Shown: in pieces, positions 11,507-15,426 of the stretch | Layout: each line of letters starts with the position of its first letter | Numbering within the stretch: position 1 is the first letter of the stretch | From: Comamonas testosteroni | GTDB lineage: Bacteria; Pseudomonadota; Gammaproteobacteria; Burkholderiales; Burkholderiaceae_C | NCBI RefSeq assembly: GCF_014076415.1 | Contig: NZ_CP043568.1 | Coordinates: forward strand, 3,906,001-3,970,000 | Direction: 5' to 3' | DNA length: 64,000 bases | Position numbers and translations under genes: made by a program | The notes under the pieces: model-generated | Told to the model about the DNA's origin: nothing | The model's input: only the letters and a program-made list of their open reading frames with translations | Databases searched by the model: none

Positions 11507-11548
11507 GTAAAAATAAACAAGGGCTAGTGCCTTTTCAAGCCCTAGCCC
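11507..11548 (-). terminator. Hairpin with T-rich tail between rplT and pheS
   Basis: On the minus strand GGGCTAG...CTAGCCC forms a stem, with further GC/TT pairs round a GAAA-like loop, followed by TTGTTTATTTTTAC. It could terminate or attenuate transcription from the infC-rpmI-rplT part before pheS. I found no phenylalanine-rich leader frame beside it. Confidence 0.6.
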
Positions 11549-11687
11549 TTGCTGTTTGTGCATCAGCAGCTACTGAACAAGACACGACTTCTGCAATCAG
11601 GTTCAAGCAAGATGCTCGCCCATCGGCAAATGCCTTTGAGGATTCTTGTCTGCAAAAGTCCTACAAGAGTAACTACCGATCGTGACC

Positions 11688-12047
11688 TCAGGCAGCCAGC
11701 TTGGCCTTGACTTGGTCGACGATAGCTGCAAAAGCAGCCTTGTCGTGCACGGCGATATCGGCCAGCATCTTGCGGTCGATTTCGATGGCAGCCTTCTTCA
11801 GGCCGTTGGCGAATTGGCTGTAAGTCAGACCCAGTTCACGTGCAGCAGCGTTGATACGAGCGATCCACAGCTGACGGAACACGCGCTTCTTGGTACGACG
11901 GTCACGGTAGGCGTATTGACCAGCCTTCATGACCGCTTGCTTGGCAACGCGGAAGACGTTACCACGGCGACCGCGGAAACCCTTGGCCAGATTCAGAACT
12001 TTTTTGTGACGGGCGCGAGCCGTTACACCACGTTTGACGCGAGGCAT
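11688..12047 (-). CDS. rplT: 50S ribosomal protein L20
   Basis: 119 residues starting [36 protein letters not shown], a full-length match to L20, highly basic. It binds 23S rRNA early in 50S assembly. In enterobacteria L20 also represses its own operon. It follows rpmI by 26 bases; GGAG lies just ahead of the ATG. Confidence 0.98.
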
Positions 12048-12073
12048 GTGTTTTCTCCTAGTTCGTCAGTGAA

Positions 12074-12277
12074 TTACAGGCCTGCGGAAGGCAACATCTT
12101 TGCGATGGAGCCCATATCGCCGGAATGCACGTTGACAATGCCACGCAGGTGACGCTTGTTCTTCGTGGTCTTCTTGGTCAAGATGTGACGCTTGAAGGCT
12201 TGACCGCGCTTGACGGTACCACCGGGACGAACGCGAAAACGCTTCTTCGCGCTGCTCTTGGTCTTCATTTTGGGCAT
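12074..12277 (-). CDS. rpmI: 50S ribosomal protein L35
   Basis: 67 residues, starting [20 protein letters not shown]; the ATG at 12275-12277 is preceded by AGGAGCATT. Full length for L35. It sits between infC and rplT in the conserved IF3-L35-L20 order. Confidence 0.97.
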
Positions 12278-12470
12278 ATGAATGCTCCTATTGAATTTGT
12301 GCTCGCAAGGCGGTGTGCAACCCGCACACACTTCGCTGGCCTCCGAGGCACTTGTTTGTCAGTCCGGCCAGGCCGGGCTGACGTCTTGCAGGCAAGCCTG
12401 CAAATTCTTTATCTGCCGCACAAAACAAAAGTGGGCCAAGCCCACTTTTGCCGACAAGGCAAAACCGCAA
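12278..12470 (-). promoter_or_regulatory. Structured leader between infC and rpmI
   Basis: The untranslated stretch contains three successive perfect or near-perfect hairpins in the RNA sense. They are AAAAGTGGGC/GCCCACTTTT (12427-12449, followed by TTTTG-rich sequence), TTGCAGGC/GCCTGCAA (12386-12403) and GTCAGCCCGGCC/GGCCGGACTGAC (12358-12382). The first looks like an intrinsic terminator or attenuator; the others could form the L20-responsive translational operator known from other phyla. Function is inferred. Confidence 0.6.
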
Positions 12471-13094
12471 TTATGCCTTATCTGCAGCCTCAGGTGCAGC
12501 TACGGCACCATCAGCCTGTGGTTTTGTACCACCGGCAGGCTTCTTGCCGCCTGCACGAGCCGGCGCAACCATCATGATCATCTGACGGCCTTCCAGCTTG
12601 GGGAACTGCTCCACCTGGATGGAATCGGCCAGGTCGTCGCGCAGACGGTTGAGCAGATTCAGACCCAGCTGCTGGTGCGTGATTTCACGGCCGCGGAAAC
12701 GCAGCGTGATCTTGCACTTGTCGCCCTCCGCCAGGAAACGGCGGATATTGCGCAGCTTGATGTTGTAGTCACCATCATCCGTACCAGGGCGGAACTTCAC
12801 TTCCTTGATTTCGATGACGGTCTGCTTGGCCTTGGCTTCAGCAGCCTTCTTCTGTTCCTGGTACTTGAACTTGCCGTAATCCATCAGACGGCAGACCGGA
12901 GGAGATGCGTTGGCCGCAATTTCCACCAGGTCGACATCCAACTCGCCGGCCATGCGCAGCGCTTCTTGCAGCGGCACGATGCCCAGAGGCTCGTTGTCGG
13001 GACCAGACAGACGCACTTCAGGCGCCATGATTTCTCGGTTCAGTCGATGCTTGCGCTCTTCACGGTGGCGCCGATCGCGAAATTCAGTAGCTAT
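12471..13094 (-). CDS. infC: Translation initiation factor IF-3, probable ATA start
   Basis: 207 residues if started at ATA (13092-13094), giving [22 protein letters not shown], the N-terminus expected for IF-3 in this group. AAGGGTG lies nine bases upstream as a ribosome site. No ATG fits: the nearest upstream in-frame ATG (13172) adds 26 unrelated residues, and a GTG lies three codons upstream. Both IF3 domains are present ([19 protein letters not shown] and [19 protein letters not shown]), with a Gly/Ala/Lys-rich tail. Non-AUG starts of infC are the basis of its self-control in E. coli (AUU). Confidence 0.95.
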
Positions 13095-13185
13095 GGTTTT
13101 CACCCTTGGATTGAAATGGCTACAACAGCGTAGCCGGCTAGCGTGCCTTGCACGCTGACCGGCCCGCCACAAAAATTAATCTGCT

Positions 13186-15105
13186 TCAGGACTTGGCCGC
13201 GATGTCCTTGGCGAGCAATTCAATGAATGCATCGACCGACATCACTCCGAGGTCTTTGTTACCCCGGGCGCGCACTGCAACCGCACCAGCAGCCTTCTCC
13301 TTGTCGCCTGCGACAAGGATGTAGGGCAGCTTCTGCATGGAATGCTCGCGTATTTTATACGTAATCTTTTCATTGCGCAGATCTGTCACCACTCTAAGGC
13401 TTTGATTCGGCAATGCTTTTTGCAGCTTCTGCGCAACTTCCTGCGCATAGTCGGCCTGAGCGTCCGTGATATTGAGCACGGCAGCCTGCACGGGAGCCAG
13501 CCAGGCAGGCAGCGCGCCCGAGTGATGCTCGACCAAAATGCCGATGAAACGCTCGAGCGAACCCAGAATCGCGCGGTGCAGCATGATGGGTCGATGGCGC
13601 TCGCCGTCCTCGCCCACGAATTCCGCATCGAGACGCTCGGGCATGTTCGGGTCCACCTGGATGGTGCCGCACTGCCATTCGCGACCCAGCGCATCCTTCA
13701 GGGTGTACTCGATCTTCGGGCCGTAGAACGCACCCTCGCCCGGCAGATACTCGAACTCGCAACCCGATGCGCGCAGACCTTCAGCCAGCGCGTTCTCGGC
13801 CTTGTCCCAGGCTTCATCGGTGCCGATGCGCTTCTCGGGACGGGTAGACAGGCGATACAGGATGTTGGTGAAGCCAAAGTCGGCATACACCTTCTGCAGC
13901 AGCGAGGTGAAAGCCGTCACCTCGGCCTGGATCTGGTCTTCGGTACAGAAGATGTGACCATCGTCCTGCGTGAAGGCACGCACGCGCATGATGCCGTGCA
14001 GCGAGCCCGTGGGCTCGTTGCGGTGGCAGTTGCCGAATTCGCCGAAGCGCAGCGGCAGATCGCGATAGCTCTTGATGCCTTGCTTGAAGATGATGATGTG
14101 GCCCGGACAGTTCATGGGCTTGAGGGCATATTCACGCTTTTCCGAATCGGTGGTGAACATGTTTTCGCGGTACTTGTCCCAGTGGCCGGTCTTCTCCCAC
14201 AGACCCTTGTCCAGAATCTGCGGAGCCTTGACTTCCTGGTAGCCGTTGTCCTGATAGACGCGGCGCATGTACTGCTCGACCTGCTGCCAGACCGACCAGC
14301 CCTTGGGATGCCAGAACACGGTACCGGGCGAGTGTTCGTCGATGTGGAACAGATCGAGTTCGCGCCCGAGCTTGCGGTGGTCGCGCTTCTCGGCCTCTTC
14401 CAACCTGAACAGATAGTCCTTGAGCTCGTCTTTGGTCGCCCAGGCGGTACCGTAGATGCGCTGCAGCATCTCGTTGCGATGGTCGCCGCGCCAGTAGGCA
14501 CCTGCCACCTTCATCAGCTTGAAGTGCCTGAGCTTGCCGGTGCTGGGCACGTGAGGACCACGGCACAGATCTTCAAAAGCGCCTTCTCGGTACAGGCTCA
14601 CATCCTCGTTGCTGGGGATACTGGCAATGATCTCGGCCTTGTAGGCTTCGCCGATGCCCTTGAAGTACTGCACGGCCTCGTCGCGCGGCAGCACGCGGCG
14701 CACCACCTGCTCGTCCTTGTTCGCCAGCTCGGTCATCTTCTTTTCGATGGCGGCCAGATCTTCGGGAGTGAAGGGACGCTTGTACGAGAAGTCGTAGTAG
14801 AAGCCGTTTTCGATAACGGGACCGATGGTGACCTGCGCATCGGGAAACAGCTCCTTGACAGCATAGGCCAGCAAGTGAGCGGTGGAGTGGCGGATCACCT
14901 CCAGACCGTCGGCATCCTTGGCGGTAATGATGGACAGCGGCGAATCCTGTTCGATCACAAAGCTGGTGTCCACGACCTTGCCGTTGATCTTGCCGGCCAA
15001 TGCGGCCTTGGCCAGGCCGGAGCCGATCGAAGCAGCGACTTCAGCGACCGAAACCGGGCCCGGATATTCGCGCTTGGAGCCATCGGGGAGCGTGATATTG
15101 ATCAT
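13186..15105 (-). CDS. thrS: Threonyl-tRNA synthetase
   Basis: 639 residues from [22 protein letters not shown] precedes this ATG, and the ATG 15 bases upstream is less likely. A TGS domain (1-61) is followed by the editing domain with [16 protein letters not shown], then the class II catalytic domain (zinc site region [11 protein letters not shown], motif 2 [19 protein letters not shown], motif 3 [18 protein letters not shown]) and the anticodon domain. It heads the thrS-infC-rpmI-rplT-pheST block. A leader of about 230 bases with a candidate Thr-rich peptide and a terminator hairpin precedes it. Confidence 0.98.
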
Positions 15106-15173: not shown

Positions 15174-15202
15174 CAAAAAGCGCGGAACCAGTCCGCGCTT
15201 TG
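15174..15202 (-). terminator. Terminator/attenuator hairpin in the thrS leader
   Basis: In the RNA sense AAAGCGCGGA-CTGGT-TCCGCGCTTT followed by TTGC forms a ten-base-pair GC-rich stem with a T-run of five. It ends about 70 bases before the thrS start and after any promoter of thrS, so it can act as an attenuator. Confidence 0.75.
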
Positions 15203-15249
15203 ATGAGGGTGTCGAAAAATCTCGGGCAGGCGCGAACCGCCAGCTGCCA

Positions 15250-15336
15250 TCAGCAGCTGAAGTACATCTCCGATGTAGTTCGCGGTGTCATAACCGTTGA
15301 TGCCTTTCTCGCCCTTGTGAATTGAAGTCGCGACAT
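15250..15336 (-). CDS. Candidate threonine-rich leader peptide of thrS
   Basis: A 28-codon frame MSRLQFTRARKASTVMTPR followed by TTSEMYFSC contains five Thr codons, three of them in ACA-CCG-CGA-ACT-ACA near the end. An internal ATG at 15289-15291 gives a 13-residue version, MTPRTTSEMYFSC, with GAGAAAGG 11 bases upstream. The stop codon lies in the loop of a CAGCTGC/GCAGCTG hairpin (15241-15259), and the terminator hairpin follows about 50 bases later. The architecture is that of ribosome-mediated attenuation. It is not proven that the frame is translated. Confidence 0.45.
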   Translation of the reverse strand: MSRLQFTRARKASTVMTPRTTSEMYFSC

Positions 15337-15351
15337 TTTAACCCGGCAAAC

Positions 15352-15383
15352 AAAAAAGCGCCCGAGACTTTCGCCCCGGGCGC
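15352..15383 (-). terminator. Intrinsic terminator of aceA
   Basis: In the RNA sense GCGCCCG pairs with CGGGCGC across a 12-base loop and is followed by six T residues. It lies 44 bases after the aceA stop codon. Confidence 0.88.
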
Positions 15384-15426
15384 ATAACCCCTTTTTTACC
15401 TAGACAGAATCACGATTCATCGTGGC

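Follow-up and report, generated by a model that had tools for sequence, protein, structure and literature searches.

The window, a stretch of 64,000 nucleotides from Comamonas testosteroni (contig NZ_CP043568.1, positions 3,906,001 to 3,970,000), carries thrS on its minus strand. Downstream of thrS lie genes that we take, from their protein sequences, to be infC, rpmI, rplT and then pheS. The region comprises, in this order, a conserved -10 box, a 13-codon open reading frame (ORF), an intrinsic terminator, and thrS, with 186 nt from the start of the leader ORF to the thrS start codon. The features are the following.

13186 to 15105, minus strand: thrS, the first gene of the presumed regulated unit.
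11688 to 13172, minus strand: infC, rpmI and rplT, 3' of thrS and likely co-transcribed with it (from the ORF list).
15335 to 15340, minus strand: -10 box TAAAAT of the leader promoter, with the conserved pattern TANNAT.
15303 to 15310, minus strand: Shine-Dalgarno sequence GAGAAAGG of the leader ORF, conserved in the leaders and in alignment A1.
15250 to 15291, minus strand: leader peptide gene MTPRTTSEMYFSC, 13 codons, stop TGA.
15278 to 15284, minus strand: segment 1, CGCGAAC, inside the leader gene and able to pair with segment 2.
15240 to 15260, minus strand: 9-bp hairpin whose loop contains the stop codon of the leader.
15230 to 15238, minus strand: segment 2, GGTTCGCGC, the predicted partner of segment 3 when a ribosome masks segment 1.
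15190 to 15198, minus strand: segment 3, GCGCGGACT, which is both the 5' arm of the terminator and the 3' arm of the antiterminator.
15175 to 15201, minus strand: intrinsic terminator AAAGCGCGGACTGGTTCCGCGCTTT, made up of segments 3 and 4 and a T-tract.

A preliminary description had proposed a threonine-codon attenuator here, and its structural elements are all present as described. The short frame with the Thr codons ACA, ACT and ACA occupies 15291-15250, and its stop codon lies in the loop between CAGCTGC (15259-15253) and GCAGCTG (15247-15241). The terminator before thrS is a hairpin at 15201-15177 followed by a T-rich stretch, and GGTTCGCGC (15238-15230) can pair with GCGCGGACT (15198-15190). 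From the end of thrS to the end of rplT, the scan found no terminator-like site on the same strand. By eye, no Phe-rich ORF or Phe leader precedes pheS in the window or in the loci inspected. Between rplT and pheS, at window positions 11509-11550, there is a hairpin followed by a T-rich tail, and visual inspection shows a comparable hairpin in many of the other loci. The thrS unit and pheST may be partly uncoupled.

Comparison with relatives identifies the conserved parts of this leader. A set of 68 leaders, including that of the window, was extracted from 110 loci by requiring the first 15 bases of the ORF to match with no more than two differences. Five poor matches (L105, L108, L021, L053 and L081) were removed by hand, and L108 carries the leader core on its other strand. 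Codons 2-5 are partly selected by this search motif, and codons 6 onward are free of it. All 68 have thrS downstream on the same strand, at a distance of 70-240 nt from the leader stop. The conservation of Thr codons, which the preliminary description had asked of relatives, is found at codon 6, which encodes Thr in 50 of the 68 leaders (ACG 19, ACA 14, ACC 13, ACT 4); codon 7 does so in 39. Examples are MTPRTTTETSTSR, MTPRTTTTPTKV and MTPRTTTAGKRQ. Threonine constitutes 33.8% of the residues after Met in the 68 leaders (codons 2-5 being partly selected), compared with 4.8% among the codons of 32 window ORFs. Taken alone, the three Thr codons among 12 in the window's own leader are weak (p about 0.018). 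Judged from sequence comparison, the case beyond chance rests on conservation, namely the leader matches, the in-frame synonymous bias, and the stems with the stop codon in the loop.

The leader ORF starts with ATG in 67/68 leaders, a count partly selected by the motif. Immediately 5' of this ATG, GAAAGG is present in 57 leaders and the full GAGAAAGG in 49. Synonymous changes were counted along 38 nearest-neighbour edges that link 90 distinct leader genes. In frame 0, of the 81 codons with a single change, 42 changed synonymously, where 27.8% would be expected (p=4e-6, an approximate value because the edges do not form a phylogenetic tree). Frames 1 and 2 are near expectation, with 25/80 (p 0.22) and 23/94 (p 0.49). 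By this comparison of synonymous bias, the leader frame is translated.

Across 66 leaders, the pattern TANNAT is found at 39 places that lie 48-51 nt 5' of the ATG, with a background of 0.0024 per position. A G stands two bases 5' of the -10 box in 84% of 45, and the leader promoter has no clear -35 box. The window's TAAAAT at 15340-15335 places the predicted transcription start near 15328. A transcription start downstream of 15250, named earlier as an outcome that would speak against the attenuator, is unsupported given this conserved box upstream of the leader. The start of the ORF had been left ambiguous between 13 and 28 codons. The shorter form is favoured by the GAAAGG before its ATG and by the predicted transcription start. 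The 28-codon form is unlikely because its start at 15336 lies upstream of that predicted start; an in-frame upstream start exists in 40/66 leaders, but at scattered positions.

Alternatively, the terminator could be part of a small RNA gene of its own, or a functional micropeptide could be encoded by the ORF, with thrS transcribed from its own promoter further down. This reading is extremely unlikely. An attenuated RNA of about 150 nt would be compatible with it, as is the known trans-acting leader peptide peTrpL (PMC7298713). The conserved -10 box upstream of the leader speaks against it, as do the second half of the peptide, which is less conserved than the first, and the single match of the element in its own genome at E<=1e-6. 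Moreover, the Thr codons match the downstream gene, which the leader adjoins in every one of the 68 cases.

Pairing was compared in alignment A1, which includes 52 of the 63 leaders that were eligible; the other 11, which are divergent (Burkholderia type and others), were left out, and the pair counts describe the own-family type. The terminator helix of segments 3 and 4 is paired in 94.8% of A1 cells and has 18 double-change cells against 4.2 in shuffles. The antiterminator helix of segments 2 and 3 is paired in 87.5% of cells and has 7 double-change cells against 2.1, a count that none of 500 shuffles matches. The number of its pairs with any double change is unexceptional (3 against 1.6; 62/500 shuffles). 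Comparison over these 52 sequences thus bears out the conserved alternative pairing that had been asked of relatives. The protector helix of segments 1 and 2 is paired in 84.6% of cells without covariation (154/500 shuffles as high), which says little either way because segment 1 hardly varies. Pairing of this type, between the CGAAC region and the downstream RNA, reaches p<=0.05 in 23/64 leaders of the own family and in 2/26 outside it, the latter hardly above shuffles. Mutual exclusion of antiterminator and terminator is supported for the own-family type. Stems of 6 bp or more that place the stop codon in the loop are present in 26/68 leaders against 8.4 expected, and variants elsewhere include CCAGCC/GGCTGG and CCGGCC/GGCCGG. 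The window's leader as a whole does not fold with unusual stability (z -1.3; 17/200 shuffles as good).

These features very probably constitute a ribosome-mediated attenuator of transcription, sensitive to charged tRNA-Thr and acting on thrS, probably together with infC-rpmI-rplT. We infer from the layout that the ribosome stalls, how the steps follow one another, and how the leader responds to threonine. Transcription would start near 15328, and a ribosome would translate the 13-codon leader. When threonyl-tRNA is short, the ribosome would stall at codons 5-6 (ACT ACA) and cover segment 1. Segment 2 would then pair with segment 3, no terminator would form, and thrS would be transcribed. When threonyl-tRNA is plentiful, the ribosome would finish and leave, and the leader would refold with segment 2 held upstream. 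Segment 3 would then pair with segment 4, and transcription would end after about 150 nt.

Folding of 67 of the 68 leaders (L009 was left out) gave, for the stage at which segment 4 has yet to be transcribed, the probability of segment 3 being paired upstream. The mean is 0.34 in the free RNA; it is 0.77 when a ribosome occupies codon 6 and 0.57 when one occupies the stop codon. It is already 0.65 for shuffled spacers, because the GC-rich arm pairs easily. The ribosome at codon 6 raises the value above that of free RNA in 59/67 leaders, and the stalled value exceeds the leader's own shuffle mean in 54/67. The window's own values are 0.06 for free RNA, 0.92 at codon 6, 0.93 at the stop codon, and 0.65 for the shuffled spacer. 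A ribosome held at the Thr codons is thus predicted to block the terminator, as the attenuation model requires. For the window's own leader, no return of termination is predicted while a ribosome occupies the stop codon, and termination there must therefore depend on release and refolding. The earlier proposal of a Thr-codon attenuator for thrS is accordingly supported, at the level of sequence, by the conserved Thr codons, the pairing of segments 2 and 3, and the upstream -10 box, without covariation of segments 1 and 2 or termination in the stop state of its own sequence.

The leader DNA matches 180/250 genomes of the family at E<=0.001, by DNA match alone and irrespective of the position of thrS. 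A model of the element matches 51/53 genomes of the genus, its own included, and 46/46 of those of good quality. Four congeners (L295-L298) have a divergent leader of the type MTPRTQSSTGVLPTA, which has no Thr run. Among the named loci, 40/80 have such a leader and 40/80 do not, and several of the latter have divergent Thr leaders. In the order, 22/200 genomes have full-length matches at E<1e-7, and 17 of these lie outside the own family, in seven other families. The ORF core is kept within three mismatches in 15 of the 17, and the match lies directly upstream of thrS in 7/7 non-family full-length cases for which the place of thrS is listed. In the class search of 185 genomes, the own genome and one family member alone reach E<1e-7 at full length. 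One further full-length match in the class (L141, E 2.3e-7) was rejected as a leader; it has no MTPRT frame, and its longest downstream frame is not thrS-like by eye. Matches at E<=0.01 occur in 132/200 genomes of the order and 85/185 of the class, and among the matches listed they are mostly short and confined to the terminator part of the model.

In E. coli, thrS is a textbook case of a synthetase that represses its own translation through an operator. If the same applied here, ThrRS would bind a tRNA-Thr-like operator near the thrS start and repress translation, and the leader would be incidental. The target gene is the same, but the E. coli control is translational repression by ThrRS, whereas the control proposed here is transcriptional and exerted by the ribosome. 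Among the matches listed, only those in the own genome and one congener (G128) extend beyond about position 187 of the 246 in the query. The sequence leading up to the thrS start codon is thus not conserved at this level of similarity. The conserved part is instead the translated ORF. Operator control is therefore very unlikely; in its favour stand the E. coli precedent and the autoregulation by E. coli ThrRS mentioned in the accessible part of PMC2965389.

Divergent leaders were sought with two scans for Thr clusters. The looser scan is uninformative because the reverse strand gives as many hits as the forward strand (order 21/87 forward and 24/87 reverse; class 2/29 forward and 7/29 reverse). 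The strict scan, which required a Shine-Dalgarno sequence, a Thr cluster, and a downstream terminator, was designed after the outcome of the looser one had been seen. It finds 10/87 further thrS upstream regions in the order against 0/87 on the reverse strand, and 0/29 thrS loci in the wider class. Some leaders lack MTPRT and keep CGA-ACN, such as MFKRTTTTRISR, MSFRTTTTGTLNQG and MAVRTTTTHP. Others, such as MTPRTCFFLR and MTPRTWMRRLSMG, keep MTPRT without the Thr run.

The rare Arg codon CGA is codon 4 of the leader (window 15282-15280) and precedes the Thr run. It amounts to 5.3% of the Arg codons in 32 ORFs of the window, and it stands before the Thr run in 65/68 leaders of the motif-selected set. 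In the strict scan, which has no Arg-codon condition, CGA directly precedes the first clustered Thr in 8/10 leaders; these ten share ancestry and are not independent. This codon is the one feature that the classical model leaves unexplained, and common descent may be part of the cause.

A rival reading is a peptide- or RNA-based arrest, in which a near-invariant MTPRT core with the rare CGA either stalls ribosomes by itself or acts by binding a factor, with the Thr run merely adjusting the response. Codons 2-5 barely vary even at third positions (partly by motif selection), the MTPRT core persists in other families without Thr at codons 6-7, and the CGA recurs in the strict-scan leaders of shared descent. 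The own family, however, keeps the Thr at codon 6 through synonymous changes, which an arrest core alone would not need, and arrest of this kind is distinctly improbable. A rather doubtful extension of the attenuator holds that it is an ancient, order-wide Thr attenuator whose true constant is CGA before the first clustered Thr, and that the slow CGA paces the leading ribosome relative to RNA polymerase. The ribosome would then arrive at the Thr codons while segments 2 and 3 are emerging, and CGA would act as a built-in synchroniser. To our knowledge, a synchroniser of this type is not known from classical leaders.

Ribosome-mediated attenuators are known for the amino-acid operons trp, his and thr of enterobacteria. 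The present leader resembles them in its short ORF, which is led by a Shine-Dalgarno sequence and rich in cognate codons, in its terminator before the first gene, and in its mutually exclusive antiterminator. It differs in that the controlled gene is that of an aminoacyl-tRNA synthetase, probably with infC-rpmI-rplT, in Betaproteobacteria, and in the unusually invariant 5' core of its ORF. The pheM-pheST attenuator of E. coli is likewise leader-peptide control of a synthetase transcription unit, with Phe codons and pheST in place of Thr codons and thrS. Leader peptides rich in the cognate amino acid also precede the synthetase gene hisS in bacilli, according to the accessible part of PMC2965389; they differ in gene, amino acid, and phylum. 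The main text of that paper does not contain the word thrS. No thrS leader is found in the accessible parts of PMC4833913, PMC10272879 and PMC2330054. In the open-licence papers, as far as their text is accessible, no thrS leader peptide of this group was recognised, and the most relevant comparative surveys lie outside that scope. Short 5' UTR transcripts have been described in Burkholderia cenocepacia, including those of two tRNA-synthetase genes, BCAL3373 and BCAL3436 (PMC5688073, accessible part), and one of these might be thrS. The leader is probably a known type of control at a gene and in a group for which no earlier description was found.

In a large part of the Burkholderiales, tRNA charging appears to control the transcription of thrS, probably along with that of the genes for IF3 and two ribosomal proteins. 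The attenuator would probably let the bacteria make more ThrRS when charged threonine tRNA runs low. If this is true, the leader is a natural reporter of threonyl-tRNA charging, and one essential gene has switched its sensing mechanism between related lineages. T-box control was considered and rejected. At gathering thresholds, only a tRNA is matched by Rfam in the window, and at E<=5 two sub-threshold matches appear, both upstream of the leader (15350-15426), with no family matching the leader.

At least seven named loci (L005, L013, L014, L021, L023, L025 and L058) have no leader ORF and keep a similar terminator hairpin, L023 being judged by eye. In L005, L021, L025 and L058, this hairpin begins 22-35 nt after the start of a TAAAAT box. 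A tRNA-Val(GAC) gene lies directly 5' of the thrS leader or start in 8/8 loci according to ARAGORN (L053, L061, L068, L078, L210, L235, L236 and L264). This suggests that, in other betaproteobacteria, a tRNA and the attenuator share one transcript.
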